Shown: positions 27,217-36,029 of the stretch, piece after piece
How the letters are laid out: each line of letters starts with the position of its first letter
Numbering within the stretch: position 1 is the first letter of the stretch
Assembly (NCBI RefSeq): GCF_003611635.1
Contig: NZ_RAVZ01000024.1
Span: 1-48,373 of the forward strand
Direction: 5' to 3'
From: Corallococcus terminator
GTDB lineage: Bacteria; Myxococcota; Myxococcia; Myxococcales; Myxococcaceae
Length of the DNA stretch: 48,373 nt
Notes under the pieces: generated by a model
Database searches by the model: none
Seen by the model: only the letters and a program-made list of their open reading frames with translations
Told to the model about the DNA's origin: nothing
Program-made: the position numbers and the translations under genes

Positions 27217-28494
27217 ATGAAGAAACTGCTGATGTCCGCCGCCGTCATCGCGCTTTCCTCCACCCAGGCCATGGCCGCGCCGATGTCTCCTTCGGCCCGC
27301 CCCGTGGCACAGAACTTCTCCGCCACCGTGCAGGATGCCTTTACCCTGCTGGGTGACACGGACGACCTGAAGCTTGTCTATTACATCCCGCGCCGCGGTG
27401 GCGTGGCGGTGCAGTCGCCGCTGAGCACCAATCCCATCCCGCGCTTCAACATCACCGCCTACACCCCGTCCTTCGGCTTCTTCGCGGGCGAGGAGCTGAC
27501 CACGCTGGGTGGCTCGTTCTCCACCACCAGCGACCTGGGCGCCCTGGGCCTGCTGCAGACGGAGGCCCTCAACAAGGGCTTCCGCATCGCCCCGGCCCCG
27601 TCGAAGGCGGCCCGCAGCCAGTTCATGCTCTCCGGCTACGCGCCGCCGAACGGCCGCGTGGAGATCAAGTGCGACAAGGAGATCATCCAGGTCACCAGCC
27701 CGTCCACGGGTGAAGTGCGCAACGTCACGATTCCCAAGTGCTTCACGCACGACGACCCGACGCAGCCGTACGACCTGGACACGAACGTGATGTACAAGTT
27801 CACCAGCGCGCCGCCGGTCGGCAACAGCACCGTGGCGCAGGACATCCCGTTCCAGGCGACCACGCTGCCCAACTGGGCCGGCCCGCTGCGCGCCATGATG
27901 AGCAGCGGCGGTCAGTGGGACCACGTCGTCAACGCGCAGGTCGAGTGGACCGTTCGCACGAGCGAGCTGACCCGCCAGGCGCGCTTCAACATCAACTGGA
28001 AGTCCATGTTCGAGCAGGCGAGCACCTTCGCCGCCTTCCACCTGAGCTCCTGCGTGGACATCGAAGTTCGCGGCTTCTTCGAGCGGCTGACCCAGTGCAC
28101 GGCGGAGAACGCGTGCGGCATCCGCATCGAGTACCTGCAGACCAACGGCACCTGGGGTCCCCGCGCTCCCAATGACGCCAACTTCATCAACGTCGTGAAC
28201 GCCGTCCAGCAGCGCCTGCAGACGGAGCTGTTCAACGAAGTGCGCCGCTACACGACGCCGGTCAACGGCCAGGTCTCCAACCAGGTCAACTCCGTCTTCA
28301 CGCTGCGCGCCAACTACGAGAAGCTCATCCTGGACAAGAACGAAGTCGTCTACGTCCAGTACAACCCGGGTCCCACCGAGTTCAACGCCAAGACCAACCT
28401 CAACGTGACGTGCCTCATCGGCGGGTTCGAGTCGGGCCGCACCTACTGGGACATGGCGGACGCCGGCTGCCGCGCGATGCTGGGCCAGCCGTAA
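27217..28494 (+). CDS. Secreted protein of unknown family, first gene of cluster
   Basis: 425 residues. Clear Sec signal peptide: MKKLLMSAAVIALSSTQAMAAP with cleavage after AMA near residue 21. The mature part is beta-rich with few charges at first (LKLVYYIPRRGGVAVQ, RFNITAYTPSFGFFAGEEL), then a middle region with VEIKCDKEIIQV and paired cysteines (for example SSCVDIEVRGFFERLTQC and ENACG), and a C-terminal helix plus LNVTCLIGGFESG. The even number of cysteines suggests disulphides and an extracytoplasmic site. I do not recognise it. It leads seven co-directional genes and is followed by a strong hairpin, so it may be made in greater amount than the rest. Confidence 0.7.
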   Translation: MKKLLMSAAVIALSSTQAMAAPMSPSARPVAQNFSATVQDAFTLLGDTDDLKLVYYIPRRGGVAVQSPLSTNPIPRFNITAYTPSFGFFAGEELTTLGGSFSTTSDLGALGLLQTEALNKGFRIAPAPSKAARSQFMLSGYAPPNGRVEIKCDKEIIQVTSPSTGEVRNVTIPKCFTHDDPTQPYDLDTNVMYKFTSAPPVGNSTVAQDIPFQATTLPNWAGPLRAMMSSGGQWDHVVNAQVEWTVRTSELTRQARFNINWKSMFEQASTFAAFHLSSCVDIEVRGFFERLTQCTAENACGIRIEYLQTNGTWGPRAPNDANFINVVNAVQQRLQTELFNEVRRYTTPVNGQVSNQVNSVFTLRANYEKLILDKNEVVYVQYNPGPTEFNAKTNLNVTCLIGGFESGRTYWDMADAGCRAMLGQP

Positions 28495-28509
28495 GGGCCT
28501 GACCGGAAG

Positions 28510-28564
28510 CGCGGGGCCGGCTGTCTCCCGGGGGAGTTTCCCCCCGGGGGGCCGTGGCCCCGCG
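28510..28564 (+). terminator. Compound hairpin between first and second cluster genes
   Basis: Outer arms CGCGGGGCC (28510-28518) and its complement (28556-28564) enclose an inner 8-bp stem (28527-28534 with 28541-28548). A pyrimidine run (TCTTCCTTTTCC) follows. It fits a full or partial terminator 15 bases after the stop codon. Confidence 0.65.
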
Positions 28565-28597
28565 TCTTCCTTTTCCTCCTTCCAGGCAGACACCCCC

Positions 28598-29425
28598 ATG
28601 CGCATCCAACACGCCATCACCCTCGCCGTGCTGAGCCTGCTCGTCCTGGCTCCGGCCGCGAATGCCCAGACGTCCCCGCCGCTCGACTACGTCCGCCGCA
28701 TCCAGCAGAACGAGATGGTCTTCGTGCCCTACATGGGCATGACGCGCGGCCCCGTCTACTACACGAAGTATGAGCAGGTCTCGACGGGCGTCTCCGGCGC
28801 CAGCGGGTTCCGCCGGGTCATCCTCAACCTGACCCCGACGGCGCACCGGCTGAACCAATACAACAGCTTCATCTCCCAGAACGGCATCACCGACGCCCGG
28901 CTCAACGCGGTCACCGCGGCCAGCGCCTGCCAGCCGTCCGAGGAGATCAAGGCCATGACGGCCTACATGCCGGAGGCCTACCGGCCCAAGGTCCTCGCCG
29001 GCAACTACCCCACCCTGTGCAGCCTGAGCGTGTACTTCCTCCCCGAGGAAGAGGCCGCGACGATGGCGTTCATCAACACGCACGCGGTCATCATGATGCG
29101 CGCCACCGTGCCCCTGTGCGACCCGGCGAGCGCCCGGCTCAGCCTGGGCCCCATCAACCAGCGGCTCGTGCAGGCCGGCGTGCTGAGCACCAACGCCGCC
29201 AGCGAGCTGGTGGGCAATAGCTGGGATGTCCTCTTCGAGTCCGCGAAGCTGGCCCAGACCGCGCCCTACCTGTTCGTCACGTCGGATCCGCAGGTGGGTT
29301 GGGAGATCTACATGAAGTCCTTCACCCTGGATCTCACCGCCCAGACGGCGACGATGACGGCGCTCACCGCGGGCCAGCAGGCCTACATCTGCACGCCCGC
29401 GCCGCTGTCCCTGACGTTCGGATAG
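28598..29425 (+). CDS. Secreted protein of unknown family
   Basis: 275 residues. Sec signal peptide: MRIQHAITLAVLSLLVLAPAANAQ, with cleavage after ANA near residue 23. The mature protein is mixed alpha/beta. Stretches such as NEMVFVPYMGMTRGPVYYTKY and FRRVILNLTPTAHRLNQYN look like edge strands. Cysteines occur in CQPSEE, TLCSLSV, PLCDPA and YICTPA, four in all, allowing two disulphides. The closing QAYICTPAPLSLTF recalls the end of a beta-barrel or lectin-like fold, but I assign no family. Length and gene order suggest that it partners with the product of 27217-28494. Confidence 0.7.
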   Translation: MRIQHAITLAVLSLLVLAPAANAQTSPPLDYVRRIQQNEMVFVPYMGMTRGPVYYTKYEQVSTGVSGASGFRRVILNLTPTAHRLNQYNSFISQNGITDARLNAVTAASACQPSEEIKAMTAYMPEAYRPKVLAGNYPTLCSLSVYFLPEEEAATMAFINTHAVIMMRATVPLCDPASARLSLGPINQRLVQAGVLSTNAASELVGNSWDVLFESAKLAQTAPYLFVTSDPQVGWEIYMKSFTLDLTAQTATMTALTAGQQAYICTPAPLSLTFG

Positions 29426-29464
29426 CCCCGGGGGCTTCCCGTTTCGCGGCAACAACTCCCGGAA

Positions 29465-29490
29465 GCGGCCATGGCGCGCGCCATGGCCGC
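29465..29490. repeat. 26-bp perfect palindrome
   Basis: GCGGCCATGGCGC followed directly by its exact complement, with no loop, 40 bases after one stop codon and 27 before the next start. It can form a hairpin in RNA or a cruciform in DNA. It may stabilise or separate mRNA segments within the cluster, or be a terminator. Confidence 0.7.
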
Positions 29491-29516
29491 CTCCGGCGTG
29501 AGGAGGACGTCTGACC

Positions 29517-29837
29517 ATGTGGAGAGGGATGTGGGTCGTCGCGGGGCTCTTCGGCTGGGCCGCGTGTTCGGGCAATGAAGGCGTCGAACCGGAGGACCCG
29601 GAAGCGCGCAAGCAGAAGCTGCGCGGATGCATCCTCCAGAAGCTGCCCCCGGCGCAGGTGGGCGCGGAGGCGTGGACGGTGTCCGGCTACGTGCTGGTGG
29701 AGGCCTATGCGCGGTGCCTGGACGCCGGGGAGACGTCGACGGCGGCGGACTTCCGCGCCGTGACGGAAGGCATGGCCGACCTGCAGGCGGAGCCGTCCTG
29801 GGTGCGCATCACCGCCTCACCGGGAAGCGGCGGATGA
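29517..29837 (+). CDS. Small lipoprotein of unknown function
   Basis: 106 residues; GGAGG lies about 10 bases before the ATG. The leader WRGMWVVAGLFGWAAC gives a probable lipobox cysteine at residue 17. The mature 90 residues are acidic at first (NEGVEPEDPEARKQK), then helical, with two further cysteines (RGCILQKL and ARCLDAGE) that could form a disulphide across a helical hairpin. Its stop overlaps the start of the cytochrome gene (ATGA), which implies translational coupling and a shared role, perhaps an accessory subunit or chaperone for the cytochrome. Confidence 0.65.
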   Translation: MWRGMWVVAGLFGWAACSGNEGVEPEDPEARKQKLRGCILQKLPPAQVGAEAWTVSGYVLVEAYARCLDAGETSTAADFRAVTEGMADLQAEPSWVRITASPGSGG

Positions 29838-30988
29838 AGCTGCTCGTCCTGCTCCTGCTGGCGTGGAGCACGCCCGTCCTCGCCGCGGCCAGCGGGCCGG
29901 AGGCGACCGAGTGCGTGGGTTGCCACACCCCGAAGCGCACCGAGCCCCAGGCCCGCTTCGGCAACGGCCTGGGCCGGTGGAACGACAGCCAGTGCTACGG
30001 CTGCCACGCGGAATTGAACGAGGTCGCGCGCCTGAACCACCAGGGGCAGCGCGACGCGCGCTACTTCGCCGTGCCCGTGCGCGAGGAAAAGCTGGTGCGC
30101 ATGGCCACCTCGCCGCTGTCGTACATGAATGCACCGGAGGCGGTGGAGCCCGGTGGCGGCGCCGTGCCCCGGGTGTCCGGGGAGCGGCTCGCGGCCTTCC
30201 TGCGGCGCCCCGCCAGCCTGTCCTCGAAGGACGGCGGTCGGGCGCCCCGGATGATGGCCTACCCCGCGCTGACCCCCAAGGCGCTGCGCTCCGTGGCCGC
30301 GCTGCTGGCGGTGCGCGAGCCCCTGCGTGAGGAAGTGCCCGCGAAGCTGACGGAGCCGGAGAAGAAGGCAGCCGAAGCGCTGTGGACCGCGCGCTGTGGC
30401 TCCTGCCACGGCGGCACGAAGCCCATGGCGGGCCGGGGTCCCCTGGCGCTGGGGCTGCACACCGCGCAGTGGCTGCACGCGTACGCGAAGGGCCAGGCCA
30501 GCGTGCCGGGCAGGACGCGCCTCATGCCGGTGGTGGACCTGTCCCTGGACGACGCGAAGCTGCTCTACCGCTGGTTCGGCGCGGCGAGGACCGAAGCGGA
30601 GGGCGCGCTGGATGCGAGCGTCGCCCAGCTCAAGCTGGAGGCCGCGGCGGTCCCCCAGGCGGTGCCGCCCGCGTTCATCCCCTACCTCTGGGGCTCCTTC
30701 TTCCGGGACGCCACCTGCGTCCACTGCCACGCGACCAGCCCGCGCGCGGCCGGGGCCTTCAAGGCGGACGCGGAGGGGCTGAAGGCCTACCTGGGCCGCA
30801 AGTCAGGCGAGGAGTTCTGGCGCCGCCTGGAGACCCGTTCCCTGGAAGCGGAGCACGGACTGGTCGCGGCGAAGCCCGGCATGCCCATGGCGGGCACCGA
30901 GCTTCCCGCGCAGGTGCGGGGCCTCATCGCGCGCTGGGTGCTGGAAGGCTGCAAGGACCCCGAAGGGAAGACCTGGTGCCGTCGTTGA
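29834..30988 (+). CDS. Exported four-haem c-type cytochrome
   Basis: 384 residues. Signal peptide MKLLVLLLLAWSTPVLAAA, cleaved near residue 18-19. Four haem-attachment motifs C-x-x-C-H occur at Cys27-His31 (CVGCH), Cys54-His58 (CYGCH), Cys188-His192 (CGSCH) and Cys295-His299 (CVHCH). The first two are close together as in small multihaem modules; the others sit in separate helical domains. Candidate distal methionines are in KPMAGRG and KPGMPMAG. A C-terminal CKDPEGKTWC could be a disulphide. It should carry electrons in the periplasm or at the outer membrane. No oxidase or peroxidase partner is adjacent, which makes the partner proteins of this cluster interesting. Confidence 0.88.
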   Translation: MKLLVLLLLAWSTPVLAAASGPEATECVGCHTPKRTEPQARFGNGLGRWNDSQCYGCHAELNEVARLNHQGQRDARYFAVPVREEKLVRMATSPLSYMNAPEAVEPGGGAVPRVSGERLAAFLRRPASLSSKDGGRAPRMMAYPALTPKALRSVAALLAVREPLREEVPAKLTEPEKKAAEALWTARCGSCHGGTKPMAGRGPLALGLHTAQWLHAYAKGQASVPGRTRLMPVVDLSLDDAKLLYRWFGAARTEAEGALDASVAQLKLEAAAVPQAVPPAFIPYLWGSFFRDATCVHCHATSPRAAGAFKADAEGLKAYLGRKSGEEFWRRLETRSLEAEHGLVAAKPGMPMAGTELPAQVRGLIARWVLEGCKDPEGKTWCRR

Positions 30989-31014
30989 CGGCACCCGGGA
31001 CAAAAGGAATGCAC

Positions 31015-33258
31015 ATGTCCGGGATGAAGCAGCCCCCCACGGGGCTCTGGCGTCTGACCTTGGGAGTGCTGCTCGGCGCGTGCCTGCTTTCGGCCTGCGG
31101 GCCCGTGGACGGCGACGACGCGCCGCGCCTGCGACAGGTGCGCTCGCCGTTGGGCGGCCGCTCCTCGGCGTCCAGGCTGGCCCTGGGCCAGTACCACTCC
31201 GTGGGCGTGCACTCGGACGGAACGGTGTGGGCCTGGGGGTTCAACCGCCAGGGCCAGCTTGGCAACGGCGCGCTCACCGACAGCCCCACGCCCGTGCGGG
31301 TGAGCAACCTGGGCGACGTGGTGGCCGTGTCCTCCGGCGACTATCACTCGCTGGGCCTGCGCGCGGACGGCAGCGTGTGGTCGTGGGGAGACAACTCCTC
31401 CGGCCAGCTCGGCAACGGGACGCTGACGGCCAGCACCGTGCCCGTGCGGGTCTCCGGACTGAATGGAGTGCTCTCCGTGGGCTCCGGGTTCGCCCATTCG
31501 CTGGCCCTGCGCTCGGACGGCACGGTGTGGGCCTGGGGTGACAACCGCGCGCGCCAGTTGGGGACGCTCGCGGCCACCAGCAGCGCGGTCCCGGTGCGGG
31601 TGACGGGGCTGAGCGGAATCATCGCCGTGGTGGCCGGCGGCAACCTCTCCCTGGCGCTGCAATCCAACGGCACGGTGTGGGCCTGGGGTGAGAACCGGTA
31701 TGGCCAGTTGGGGGACGGCACCACGACGTCCCGGGGTGCGCCAGCGCTGGTGAAGAACCTGGCGAACGTGTCGACGCTGTCGGCCGGGGCCTCGCATGCC
31801 GTGGCGCTGCGCTCGGATGGCACGGCCTGGGCGTGGGGCCTGAATGCCAACGGCCAGTTGGGCGACGGGACGACCGTCAACCGCTCCCTGCCCGTGCAGG
31901 TGCGCTTGAACGACCTGATGGCGGTGGTCGCCGGCAACTACCATTCGCTGGCGGTGCGCGAGGACGGCGCGGTGTGGGCCTGGGGTGACAATCGCTATCG
32001 TCAACTGGGCAATGGGACGACCACCAGCAGCCTCCTGCCCCTCCAGACGGGCCTCACGGGCGGCACCACCCTGGTGGCGGGCTACAAGCACTCGCTGACC
32101 CTGCGCGCGGATGGTTCGGTGTGGTCGTGGGGGGACAACGCCTTCGGCCAGTTGGGGGATGGCTCCTTCCAACCGAAGGTGAGCCCCGTGCGTGCGGGCA
32201 ACCTCACCCTGGGCAACGCGGGAGCGAGCACGGGCCAGCTCCACTCCGTCTCGCTCGACTCCAGCGGCAGGGTCTGGACGTGGGGGGACAACTTCGAAGG
32301 GCAGTTGGGCGATGGCACGGACATCGACAGCCTCATCCCAAGGCAGACCAGCCTGAGCAACGTCGTGTCCGTGTCCGCCGGGTACCGGCACACCGTGGTC
32401 CTCAAGGGTGACACCACGGTGTGGAGCTGGGGGGGCAACGAGCGGGGACAGGTGGGGGATGGGACGACCACGAACCGCACCCTGCCCCTCCAGGTCGCGG
32501 GCCTGTCGGGCATCTCCGCCGTGGCCGCGGGCAGCTACCACTCGCTGGCGCTGCGCTCGAATGGCACCGTGTGGGCCTGGGGGTTCAACCGCTACGGCCA
32601 GTTGGGGGACGGGACGACCACGGACCGACTGCTGCCCGTGCAGGTCTCCGGCCTGTCCGGGGTGGTGGCCATCGCGGCCGGGCACAGCCATTCGCTGGCG
32701 CTGCGCTCGGATGGCACCGTGTGGAGCTGGGGCTACAACTTCGACGGCCAGATTGGCGATGGCAGCAATGCCTGGCGCATCCTGCCGGTGCAGGCGACGG
32801 GGCTGACAGGCGTGGTGACCATCGCCGCCGGGGCCTACCACTCGCTGGCGCTGCGTTCGAACGGCACGGTGTGGGCCTGGGGCTACAACGCCACGGGCCA
32901 GTTGGGGGATGGGACCATCTCCAGCAGGGCCTTCCCCGCGCAGGTGCCCGGGCTGGGCGGCGTGGTGTCCGTGGTCGCCGGGGACTTCCACACCCTCGCG
33001 CTGAAGTCAGACGGCTTCGTGCTGGCGTGGGGCTTCAACTTCGATGGCCAGTTGGGCGATGGCTCGCTCGATCACCGCTACACCCCGGTGTACGTGGCGG
33101 GCCTGAGCAACGTCGTGTCCGTGGTCGCAGGGGACTACCACTCCATGGCCCGGCGTTCGGACGGTTCCACCTGGGCCTGGGGCTACAACGGCGAAGGCCA
33201 GTTGGGGGACGGGACGCGGGACGACACGCTCCTGCCCGTCCAGGTGCAGGGGCTCTGA
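31015..33258 (+). CDS. RCC1-repeat double beta-propeller lipoprotein
   Basis: 747 residues from the ATG at 31015, which stands 6 bases after AAGGA; another ATG at 31009 is too close to it. The leader ends LLSAC (lipobox). After a 35-residue linker come 14 repeats of about 52 residues, each with a W-x-W-G-x-N-x-x-G-Q-L-G-(D/N)-G core and a HSLALRSDGTV-type strand. Seven such repeats make one RCC1 propeller, so two propellers are predicted. The third repeat is irregular (NRARQLGTL), and the seventh-to-eighth junction differs (NLTLGNAGASTGQLHS), marking the likely domain border. RCC1-type propellers bind proteins, lipids or nucleotides. At the cell surface, adhesion or scaffolding is plausible (inference). 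Confidence 0.9.
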   Translation: MSGMKQPPTGLWRLTLGVLLGACLLSACGPVDGDDAPRLRQVRSPLGGRSSASRLALGQYHSVGVHSDGTVWAWGFNRQGQLGNGALTDSPTPVRVSNLGDVVAVSSGDYHSLGLRADGSVWSWGDNSSGQLGNGTLTASTVPVRVSGLNGVLSVGSGFAHSLALRSDGTVWAWGDNRARQLGTLAATSSAVPVRVTGLSGIIAVVAGGNLSLALQSNGTVWAWGENRYGQLGDGTTTSRGAPALVKNLANVSTLSAGASHAVALRSDGTAWAWGLNANGQLGDGTTVNRSLPVQVRLNDLMAVVAGNYHSLAVREDGAVWAWGDNRYRQLGNGTTTSSLLPLQTGLTGGTTLVAGYKHSLTLRADGSVWSWGDNAFGQLGDGSFQPKVSPVRAGNLTLGNAGASTGQLHSVSLDSSGRVWTWGDNFEGQLGDGTDIDSLIPRQTSLSNVVSVSAGYRHTVVLKGDTTVWSWGGNERGQVGDGTTTNRTLPLQVAGLSGISAVAAGSYHSLALRSNGTVWAWGFNRYGQLGDGTTTDRLLPVQVSGLSGVVAIAAGHSHSLALRSDGTVWSWGYNFDGQIGDGSNAWRILPVQATGLTGVVTIAAGAYHSLALRSNGTVWAWGYNATGQLGDGTISSRAFPAQVPGLGGVVSVVAGDFHTLALKSDGFVLAWGFNFDGQLGDGSLDHRYTPVYVAGLSNVVSVVAGDYHSMARRSDGSTWAWGYNGEGQLGDGTRDDTLLPVQVQGL
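31191..33256 (+). repeat. Fourteen tandem coding repeats (RCC1 blades)
   Basis: About 156-bp units repeat along the gene, with well-kept cores such as GGCACGGTGTGGGCCTGGGG. Conservation at DNA level, including silent positions, suggests recent duplication or gene conversion between units. Confidence 0.8.
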
Positions 33259-33280
33259 AGCCCCAGGGGCTCTGAAGCCC
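33247..33280 (+). repeat. 17-bp tandem duplication across a stop codon
   Basis: CAGGGGCTCTGAAGCCC occurs at 33247-33263 and again at 33264-33280 with no change. The first copy contains the RCC1 gene stop codon TGA (33256-33258). Each copy also holds the hairpin GGGGCTCTGAAGCCCC when joined, so it may act as a weak terminator. Confidence 0.75.
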
Positions 33281-33317
33281 GGTGACAGACATTCCAGCAG
33301 TCCTCCCAGGAGATGCA

Positions 33318-34319
33318 ATGAAGACATCCACGGTGTACGGCGCCGCCCTGCGCGCGCTGGCCTTCGCCGGTCTCGCGCTGATGCTCAGGGGCGGCGAAGC
33401 CCAGGCGCAGAACTTCACGGAGGAGCACATCCTCCTGCTCATCGACCGCAGCGGTTCCATGCAGGCGGTGCGTCCGTCCACCGGCCGGACCCGCTTCGCG
33501 GATGCCATCACGCGCGCCCGGACCTATTCGCTCCTGCCGTCGGCGCTGCCCCGCTCCTACGCGGTGTGGACGTTCGAGGGGACGACGTACGTCAAGGCGC
33601 AGGACTTCGCGAGCGCGAAGGTGACGATCGCGACCCTGGCCAAGCTGGCCGTGGGCAATGGCGTGACGCCCCTGGCCTACGCGGTCTGTGATGCCGTCGA
33701 TGAGCTGTTGCAGCACGAGCCGGGTGTCGAGGCGCGCAAGGTGGTGCACCTGGTCTCCGACGGCGAGGAGAACAGCACGCCCCCCGGAACGCTCTGCCAC
33801 GGCCCGTCCAGCACCACGGCCTGGCCAAACCTCGCCGTCGATTCCTGGCAGTGGAAGGTGCGCAACATGCTCAAGACGGGGGACCCGCTGCGGGACAGCG
33901 CGGCGCCGTTCCGGCTGGTGTTCGACGTGGATGTCTTCGCCAACCAGCTCACCTTCGCGGGCTCCGGGGAACCTGTCCGCGAGGACAGCGGCACCGAGCG
34001 CCCGGAGGAGTCCATGAGCGCGACGCTCCCGCCCGCGTACCTGGCCTTCCTGTCGGGCGTATCCACGGCCTCGGGAGGCACCTACATGCCCATCTCCGAC
34101 ACGAGCCCCATGCCCGTGTATGGCGACACCAACCAGGACTATTGCGTGGATGGCACGGACTACAACCTGGTGCTCAGCAACTATGGCCACCGGGTGCCGC
34201 CCGCGAACCCCGCCGCGGATGTGAATGGCGACCGCGTGGTCGACTACGCCGACTACTCGATTGTCGTCAACAACCAGGGAACAGGCTGCCGCACGAAGCC
34301 CCCGACGTTTGAGCAATGA
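33318..34319 (+). CDS. Secreted von Willebrand A protein with dockerin-like C-terminus (copy 1)
   Basis: 333 residues; AGGAG is 6 bases before the ATG. Signal peptide ends GGEAQA (about residue 30). The vWA domain follows at once, with the metal-ion-dependent adhesion site D43-R-S45-G-S47 (LLLIDRSGSM), a later VTPLAYA threonine and the LVSDGEENS strand-turn. After a 100-residue spacer the C-terminus (about 268-325) carries two calcium-loop motifs: DTNQDYCVDGTDYNLVLSNYG and DVNGDRVVDYADYSIVVNNQG. This is the duplicated EF-hand pattern of type I dockerins. It should bind divalent metal and protein partners outside the cell. A close sister gene follows directly, with coding regions adjacent or overlapping by 4 bp. 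Confidence 0.85.
   Translation: MKTSTVYGAALRALAFAGLALMLRGGEAQAQNFTEEHILLLIDRSGSMQAVRPSTGRTRFADAITRARTYSLLPSALPRSYAVWTFEGTTYVKAQDFASAKVTIATLAKLAVGNGVTPLAYAVCDAVDELLQHEPGVEARKVVHLVSDGEENSTPPGTLCHGPSSTTAWPNLAVDSWQWKVRNMLKTGDPLRDSAAPFRLVFDVDVFANQLTFAGSGEPVREDSGTERPEESMSATLPPAYLAFLSGVSTASGGTYMPISDTSPMPVYGDTNQDYCVDGTDYNLVLSNYGHRVPPANPAADVNGDRVVDYADYSIVVNNQGTGCRTKPPTFEQ
34143..34187 (+). repeat. 45-bp identical block shared with 35177-35221
   Basis: The first EF-hand of the dockerin-like domain is encoded by the same 45 bases here and at 35177-35221 in the sister gene, while the rest of the two genes has diverged strongly. This points to gene conversion or very strong constraint. Confidence 0.8.
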
Positions 34320-34342
34320 CCCCTCACCCCCGGAGCATGCAA

Positions 34343-35350
34343 ATGCGTTTTGAGCGACTTGCCATTCCGACGCTGGCGGCTGCCGCACTGAGCCTGTTGT
34401 TGCCCCTCCAGGAGGCCCGCGCGCAGTTCCCGCCGCCTCCGACCGAGTTCCACCACCTCATCCTCGTGGACACCAGCGGCTCCATGGCCACCCTCCGCAC
34501 GGATGGCTCCGGCAAGACCCGGTTCCAGGCGGCCATCGAGCTGGCGAAGGGCGCGGTGGCGAACAACAACTCCAACCACTATTTCGCGGTGTGGCGTTTC
34601 CAGGACTCCACCTCCTCCCAGGTCCAGGGTTTCGCGTCCGCCGGGACGACCCTTGGCACCCTGAACGCGATGCTCGGTCCCACGGGAGGAACCCCTCTTG
34701 CGCACGCGGCCTGCGCCGCCCTCGACACGCTGGACGCCTACAAGAAGGACAGCGTCAACGCGGCGAAGCTCCTGCACCTCTACTCCGATGGAGAGGACAA
34801 CAACACGCTGCCCACGGACCAGTGCGCCGGCCCCTTGAGCACGTCGCAGGACCCCACCACCCCCACCGTGAACTCGTGGAACTGGAAGCTCCTCAACAAG
34901 GCCCGGACGGGAAACCCCAACAACCCCAGTCCCATCACGACATTCCCGGTCGCGATCTACGCCACGCTGATGGACCCGTTCATCACCTTGACCGGCACGC
35001 CCTCGGAGCCCCGCGATGTCATCATCGAGGGAGACATGCCCACGCCGCGCACCCTCGCGTCCATCTCCAACTTCCAGGCCTTCCTCCAGAAGCTGTCGAC
35101 CGCCACGGGGGGCACGTTCACCGGCATCGCCGACTCGAAGCCCGCACCGGTGCTCGGTGATACCAACCAGGACTACTGCGTGGATGGCACGGACTACAAC
35201 CTGGTGCTCAGCAACTATGGCTACCGGGTGCCTCCCGCGCCCCCCGCGGCGGACCTGAACAATGACAAGGTGGTGGACTACAACGACTACACCATCGTGG
35301 TGAACAACCAGGGCAAGGGCTCCGGCTGCCGGTCGCCGTCGCCGCGCTAG
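34343..35350 (+). CDS. Secreted von Willebrand A protein with dockerin-like C-terminus (copy 2)
   Basis: 335 residues from ATG 34343, which has GGAG 7 bases upstream and gives a clean signal peptide (MRFERLAIPTLAAAALSLLL... ending EARA). ATG 34316 overlapping the previous stop, or 34337, are alternatives. The vWA metal site is D43-T-S45-G-S47 (LILVDTSGSM), followed by GGTPLAHA and LYSDGEDNN. The C-terminus repeats the dockerin-like pair, DTNQDYCVDGTDYNLVLSNYG then DLNNDKVVDYNDYTIVVNNQG. Similarity to copy 1 is highest there, including 45 identical bases. The two probably arose by tandem duplication and may form a pair binding the same partner. It is the last gene of the cluster. Confidence 0.85.
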   Translation: MRFERLAIPTLAAAALSLLLPLQEARAQFPPPPTEFHHLILVDTSGSMATLRTDGSGKTRFQAAIELAKGAVANNNSNHYFAVWRFQDSTSSQVQGFASAGTTLGTLNAMLGPTGGTPLAHAACAALDTLDAYKKDSVNAAKLLHLYSDGEDNNTLPTDQCAGPLSTSQDPTTPTVNSWNWKLLNKARTGNPNNPSPITTFPVAIYATLMDPFITLTGTPSEPRDVIIEGDMPTPRTLASISNFQAFLQKLSTATGGTFTGIADSKPAPVLGDTNQDYCVDGTDYNLVLSNYGYRVPPAPPAADLNNDKVVDYNDYTIVVNNQGKGSGCRSPSPR

Positions 35351-35425: not shown

Positions 35426-35908
35426 TCAGGGATTCCAGCAGTTGGCGGGCTGGTCGTTGATGTGGACCCAGAAGCGGGTGTCGGTCCGGACGTTGCCGTA
35501 GGCGTTGAACCCCCACCCGCCCGCGTCGTGGAACTCCGCCATCCGCCAGCCGGCGCCGAAGAACTGGACGCACATCTGGTTGGCGGACGACAGGCTCGTC
35601 AGCAGCGAGCCGGAGATGGGAAGGGTCGTCGCGATGTTCCCGGCCGCCCAGGAGGGATAGTAGCTGGCGGGGGTCTGGGCTGGCCGCGCCGAGCCATCCT
35701 GGCGGATGCACAGCAAGGGGAGGGCCGTCGTGCAGGAGGTCTCTCCGACATAGGCATCACAACCCCAGCACCCGACCTCGTCGACTCCCGAGGAATGGGA
35801 CACCTTCGCCCAGCTCATTCCCCGTCCACCTGACGCTTCCGCCGGAGGCGCCAGGGGCAAGAGGAAGAGGGACACACCCAGCAACCAACACCCGCTCTTG
35901 TTTTTCAT
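35426..35908 (-). CDS. Small secreted cysteine-containing protein
   Basis: 160 residues from ATG 35908 (MKNKSGCWLLGVSLFLLPLAPPAEAS), a clear signal peptide; an ATG 42 bases upstream adds a poor leader. The mature part has seven cysteines, among them CWGC, TSCTT, LLCIRQDG, QMCVQFF and a final NCW. Aromatic and glycine-rich strands such as FFGAGWRMAEFHDAGGWGFN and DTRFWVHINDQPANCW recall small lectin-like or fibrinogen-like folds in which a Trp-rich core closes the domain. No family is assigned. Disulphide bonds and an extracellular site are likely. It converges on the vWA gene and is divergent from the phosphatase gene. Confidence 0.65.
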   Translation of the reverse strand: MKNKSGCWLLGVSLFLLPLAPPAEASGGRGMSWAKVSHSSGVDEVGCWGCDAYVGETSCTTALPLLCIRQDGSARPAQTPASYYPSWAAGNIATTLPISGSLLTSLSSANQMCVQFFGAGWRMAEFHDAGGWGFNAYGNVRTDTRFWVHINDQPANCWNP

Positions 35909-36029
35909 TGCCTGAAGCCTATCACGAACCCCACGCAATCCCTCACACAAAGCCAGACAACCGCGTCTTCCGGGAGCCTACCGCGCATCTGGCTTGCTCC
36001 GCCGCTGGCGTCCCGCCACGCTGGGGCCC

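Follow-up and report, generated by a model that had tools for sequence, protein, structure and literature searches.

A conserved myxobacterial cluster of seven exported proteins with a putative older core of two new secreted families and a tetrahaem cytochrome

The 48,373-base contig NZ_RAVZ01000024.1 (hereafter the window) belongs to the 10.35 Mb genome of the myxobacterium Corallococcus terminator (G000:C166), and on its plus strand, between positions 27217 and 35350, it carries seven genes for exported proteins that we call g1 to g7. We found that these genes are a genuine conserved unit. Two secreted proteins of new families, g1 and g2, stand at its start, and they are followed by a small lipoprotein (g3), a tetrahaem c-type cytochrome (g4), an RCC1-repeat lipoprotein (g5) and two vWA-dockerin-like proteins (g6 and g7). 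With a probability of roughly 40%, we propose that g1 and g2 build a structure outside the cell, which is oxidised by, or wired to, the lipoprotein-anchored cytochrome and which in myxobacteria also bears the propeller and calcium-binding proteins.

To follow the unit through the Myxococcota, we examined close genomes and then the phylum. Among 59 close genomes, g1 is present only in the window genome and in one other genome of the same genus (G010), which has all seven gene types as well as the neighbouring gene g8; its order is g1-g2-g3-g4-g5-vWA as in the window, with the second vWA gene on the opposite strand. When we searched 195 Myxococcota genomes, we found g1 in 15 genomes from four genera of a single family (Myxococcaceae) and g2 in 16 genomes. 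Window proteins mapped on 20-kb stretches showed g1-g2-g3-g4-g5 to be collinear and on the same strand at 16 loci in the 15 genomes, window included, and one of these genomes has two divergent copies of the cluster (L049 and L058). The g6-type vWA gene is collinear after g5 at 14 of the 16 loci and lies divergently upstream at the other two (L055 and L058), and the second vWA gene is not fixed, being on the opposite strand or not seen at other loci. Protein identity across loci is mostly 42-75%, with g3 as low as 31% (31-53% for its orthologues). The genes that flank the unit in the window (pectinacetylesterase-like, 377 amino acids (aa), phosphoglycerate-mutase-like and 530 aa) are absent from all mapped 20-kb stretches, indicating that the surroundings of the unit differ from locus to locus. 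Pairwise distances of g1, g2 and g4 correlate, as expected if the genes travel together (Mantel r 0.81, 0.69 and 0.94; p<=0.0005; shared genome ancestry contributes to these values). The mixed domain content could suggest unrelated exported genes that are adjacent by chance, but strict collinearity at such identities in four genera with differing flanks, together with the correlated divergence of g1, g2 and g4, makes that explanation hardly credible. The original prediction had described an unrecognised exported system with a redox protein, and the conserved order supports it; we saw no scattering of the genes in relatives.

All seven genes are open reading frames on the plus strand, and their N-termini agree with the seven exported products that had been predicted: judged by eye, those of g1, g2, g4, g6 and g7 look like type I signal peptides, and those of g3 and g5 have lipoboxes. 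The tight gene order is also borne out, with spacers from g1 to g7 of 103, 91, –4, 26, 59 and –4 bp, and co-transcription of the seven genes is plausible.

Outside the Myxococcota, we found shorter versions of the cluster. In a scan of named genomes, an Oligoflexales metagenome-assembled genome has a g1 that is 52% identical, in the order g1-g2-small lipoprotein-tetrahaem cytochrome, with no RCC1 or vWA gene. In a second, divergent cluster of this genome, a pair of g1-like genes is accompanied by genes for a g2-like protein, a lipoprotein, a protein of 226 aa and a cytochrome of 447 aa that has four CXXCH motifs, and a further Bdellovibrionota contig starts inside the end of g1 and continues with a g2-like gene, a 280-aa protein, a lipoprotein and a 386-aa tetrahaem cytochrome. 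A tblastn search of plasmids located consecutive homologues of g1 (41%), g2 (26%) and the cytochrome (34%) on pSU1, a plasmid of Agarilytica rhodophyticola (Gammaproteobacteria), again without RCC1 or vWA. There, the plain g1 adjoins a second g1 homologue that bears F5/8 type C (discoidin) domains, one as an insertion close to the C-terminal third and one at the very end (L094:11404-13572). Homologues of g1 therefore span three phyla, and none was found in phage records. Because RCC1, vWA and dockerin are missing from the clusters in Oligoflexales and Agarilytica, which do have g1, g2 and the cytochrome, the calcium-binding parts cannot belong to the core. Judged from gene content, the ancient core is g1-g2-(small lipoprotein)-cytochrome, with g1-g2 as its heart and the cytochrome as its usual third part, and RCC1 and vWA-dockerin are a myxobacterial addition.

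Several loci depart from this arrangement. One genome (G144) keeps only g2 and g3 (L117:9679-10981), apparently as a decayed copy, and second g1 copies in Archangium lansinium and in G114 (L023/L056 and L057) are without g2-g4 and lie near large opposite-strand RCC1 genes. Record BNCN01000002.1 (L024) is titled Comamonas sp. KCTC 72670; its cluster is the same as that of a myxobacterial genome (G138) and the organism label looks wrong. An Agarilytica lipoprotein (P0005) that we considered as a g1 relative reached only E 5.7e-5 in a five-sequence search, and we treat it as a hint only.

The two proteins at the heart of the cluster have no match in Pfam, NCBIfam, PHROG or Protein Data Bank (PDB) sequences, and searches of the PDB sequences with their profiles gave nothing credible. 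The g1 gene (27217..28494, plus strand) encodes 425 aa; directly after the likely signal peptide, the mature N-terminus is conserved as A/V/Y-P-M/V-x-P, and C175 and C399 are present in 14 of 14 homologues in the widest alignment. Its conserved residues are mostly Cys, Gly, Pro and aromatics, and no catalytic-looking set is evident among the conserved positions. The g2 gene (28598..29425, plus strand) encodes 275 aa; profile comparison of g1 with g2 gave a probability of 9.8%, and we take the two as unrelated.

To estimate which products are made in quantity, we measured codon adaptation with the genome's own ribosomal protein operon contig as the reference. In 11 of 11 loci, some of them from close relatives, g1 is at the top of the cluster (0.76-0.87, mean 0.81), followed by g2 (0.73) and then by g5, g4 and g6, with g3 lowest (0.60); the ribosomal operon set itself has a value of 0.73, and a few other genes of the window come close to the values of g1. 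The g1-g2 spacer (28495..28597, plus strand) holds a strong hairpin with a pyrimidine tail (E –65.5, z –3.5 in the window), which may be an attenuator or stabiliser and recurs in 10 of 11 loci (mean z –3.0 over the 11), and the g2-g3 spacer (29426..29516, plus strand) holds another (z –2.6; mean z –2.7 in nine loci). The hairpin sequences are unrelated between loci, and no strong hairpin appeared in those g4-g5 and g5-g6 spacers, few in number, whose length allowed a test. A simple terminator scan locates the g1-g2 hairpin at 28545-28562; terminator-like sites in the region are near chance (five against 3.7 expected), and the case for the hairpins rests on the z-scores across loci. Because g1 codons are the most ribosomal-protein-like in all 11 loci and hairpins follow g1 and g2, g1 and then g2 are probably the abundant products. 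The hairpins suggest unequal expression within one transcript, a layout that would be expected when the first gene is needed in excess.

Between the abundant pair and the cytochrome lies g3 (29517..29837, plus strand), a 106-aa lipoprotein with lipobox WAAC and an additional conserved Cys. It has no family match in the library scans, and a related small lipoprotein is present in Oligoflexales. We found a 4-bp overlap of g3 with g4 (ATGA, GTGA or TTGA) at 16 of 16 myxobacterial loci and at one Bdellovibrionota locus (L085); given this constancy, lipoprotein and cytochrome are probably made together and are perhaps bound to each other. The cytochrome itself (g4; 29834..30988, plus strand; 384 aa) has the four CXXCH motifs CVGCH, CYGCH, CGSCH and CVHCH, in line with the original prediction of four haems, and matches Pfam Cytochrome_CBB3 (E 5e-7), Cytochrome_C7 and Cytochrom_C. 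In 16 sequences from three phyla, Met140, Met231 and Met350 are invariant, and there is no invariant His outside the CXXCH regions. The fourth site is different: Met98 is present in 13 of the sequences, next to a nearly invariant Tyr97. In c-type haems, invariant Met without an invariant extra His points to His/Met ligation and high potential. The pattern thus suggests His/Met haems of high potential that would be suitable as electron acceptors, one of them with a ligand that differs between family members.

A cytochrome of this kind could instead belong to an electron-transfer chain, exchanging electrons between the cell and acceptors or donors outside it with the other proteins as scaffold, and it does have four haems, is exported and adjoins lipoproteins. 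We regard this as distinctly unlikely, since g4 is the single cytochrome in the cluster, no cluster product matches a porin or quinol oxidase, the ligand candidates are invariant Met and not His, and codon bias points to g1/g2 as the main product rather than the cytochrome.

Downstream of the core, the predicted RCC1 double propeller is found in g5 (31015..33258, plus strand, with 31015 as the best start), a 747-aa lipoprotein with 14 RCC1 stretches (E 8.7e-170, above cut-off) and lipobox LLSAC, the lipobox-like Cys being present in eight of eight N-termini examined. The twin vWA-dockerin proteins are also recognisable, at scores at or below cut-off for most matches. These are g6 (33318..34319, plus strand; 333 aa, secreted) and its paralogue g7 (34316..35350, plus strand; 344 aa, 46% identical). 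The residues D43, S45, S47, T117 and D148 of the vWA metal-ion-dependent adhesion site (MIDAS) are invariant in five proteins, and the VWA_2 score is above cut-off only in g7. Both proteins end in two canonical calcium-binding loops, with Dockerin_1 scores of 22.6 bits for g6 (cut-off 22.9) and 13.3 for g7; one dockerin match in the genome is above cut-off (24.4 bits), and dockerin is found only at this cluster.

The intact MIDAS residues and calcium loops would fit the direction taken by the original prediction, namely a calcium-dependent adhesion complex, held in this case by cohesin-dockerin pairs. When we looked for the cohesin partner that had been suggested, a PF00963 search of the 99.99% complete genome detected the positive control and no cohesin. 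The core clusters are also without vWA and dockerin, and the position of the vWA gene varies between loci. A cohesin-dockerin complex is therefore very unlikely, and of the predicted calcium-dependent extracellular complex needing redox input, what stands is a conserved exported system with a redox protein, and not its dependence on calcium. In other genomes of the same genus, we saw a vWA-dockerin-like gene between a gene for an 816-aa protein without assigned function and a gene for a subtilase-like (PF00082) protein that also ends dockerin-like (L015:5207-11429, L016 and L017), which makes a second dockerin-tagged cluster.

In the model that we favour, g1 would be the chief structural component of a layer, fibre or complex outside the cell and g2 its partner, and the g3 lipoprotein would anchor the g4 cytochrome at the envelope. 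The cytochrome would either take electrons from g1/g2, oxidising them so that they are, for example, cross-linked or matured, or electrically wire the structure. The surface-binding parts added in myxobacteria would be the RCC1 propeller lipoprotein and the Ca/MIDAS vWA-dockerin proteins. The plain and discoidin-bearing g1 of Agarilytica and the tandem g1 copies of Oligoflexales look like a family of subunits of which one form is adapted to binding.

Several observations weigh against this model. A g1-g2 pair without an adjacent cytochrome is present in one Myxococcus-genus genome and in two other Bdellovibrionota genomes (where g2 was assigned by eye and alignment, a weak assignment), indicating that redox is not always needed. 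The link from g4 to g1/g2 is indirect, and expression is gauged from codon bias, likewise an indirect measure. The AlphaFold model of g1 (seven sequences) has a confidence score (pLDDT) of 46, too poor to judge. The g2 model (six sequences) reached 83.8 and had no Foldseek match in the PDB at E<=0.001, with a weak best hit by VIA (Z 6.1, root-mean-square deviation 4.1, 81 residues). The candidates from Foldseek and VIA (gyrase A, RNA polymerase and antibodies) were weak and mutually unrelated, and we took them as background; such a weak or absent match in a predicted model does not prove a new fold. The fuller claim is that g1 with g2 makes up an abundant extracellular structure, not described before, which a dedicated lipoprotein-coupled tetrahaem cytochrome with one unusually ligated haem matures or connects electrically, and that this is a new kind of redox-made surface structure over three phyla. 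It is tentative and on balance rather doubtful; the unusual ligation is put forward because invariant Met would serve three haems and Met98 occurs at the fourth site in part of the family only.

The same gene pair could also be read as secreted enzymes, such as an oxidase or oxygenase with prey or polymer as its target, that exchange electrons with g4 while the RCC1 and vWA proteins bind substrate. A redox partner gene is indeed coupled to two secreted proteins, the owners include predators and the alga-associated Agarilytica, and one g1 homologue has discoidin domains. We consider this unlikely, given that g1 and g2 have no catalytic-looking set of conserved residues across phyla and that pairs without the cytochrome exist.

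Around the clusters, we observed further genes. Next to g7, g8 (35426..35950, minus strand) encodes a 174-aa secreted protein without known family and is an optional neighbour, present beside the cluster at five loci (window included) at differing ends and strands; its homologues at L013, L047, L055 and L058 are 62-68% identical. The Oligoflexales clusters (L080:9460-19163 and L022:3872-5084) have after them a gene for a regulator, which in L022 is TIGR02147-like, and one for a small secreted protein that contains a GGGSP stretch. In L080, the cluster is also followed by two ABC transporters, of which one is bacteriocin-export-like, and by cupin-like and desaturase-like proteins.

To place the system, we compared it with known ones. 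A literature search, which covered few subscription journals, gave no paper that combines the cluster parts in myxobacteria or describes the system, and the seven products had no match to PADLOC phage-defence models. Like MtrCAB/OmcA, the cluster has an exported multihaem cytochrome near lipoproteins; however, g4 has four haems and not 10, has Met rather than His ligand candidates, and scores 19.8 bits against a cut-off of 209.3 with TIGR03507, a very weak resemblance near one haem pair. No porin family is matched by any of the seven products, and since g1 and g2 are without any family an unrecognised barrel is conceivable. Metal-reducing bis-His cytochromes differ from g4 in their ligand residues, its Met being invariant and no extra His being so. 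The dockerin-like C-termini of g6 and g7 resemble those of cellulosomal and non-cellulosomal dockerin proteins, but the genome has no cohesin and the seven products include no carbohydrate-active enzyme. An RCC1-repeat protein of Myxococcus xanthus, MXAN_0889, was found in membrane vesicles (PMC4158809) and is like g5 a myxobacterial RCC1 protein, in its case from an extracellular fraction; we compared the two by repeat type only.

In MbnH/MbnP and MauG-type systems, c-type enzymes with two haems oxidise residues of a partner protein. The likeness is one of working principle only, in that the gene for an exported multihaem c-type protein lies next to that for a secreted partner; in contrast, g4 has four haems and no Pfam match to CCP_MauG (PF03150) up to E 1, and g1 and g2 are in no described family. 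Because the tests for decahaem, MauG, cohesin-dockerin and defence systems were negative or borderline and no description was found, we regard the system as new in kind. The g1 and g2 families, absent from curated libraries, are kept side by side, usually with a tetrahaem cytochrome, in Myxococcota, Bdellovibrionota and a gammaproteobacterial plasmid, and this joint retention implies that selection acts on a shared function, one outside the known systems tested here. Should the cytochrome modify or wire the structure, this would be a new way of making or powering a bacterial surface layer, and the owners of the cluster include finished, culturable myxobacteria in which its function is directly testable.

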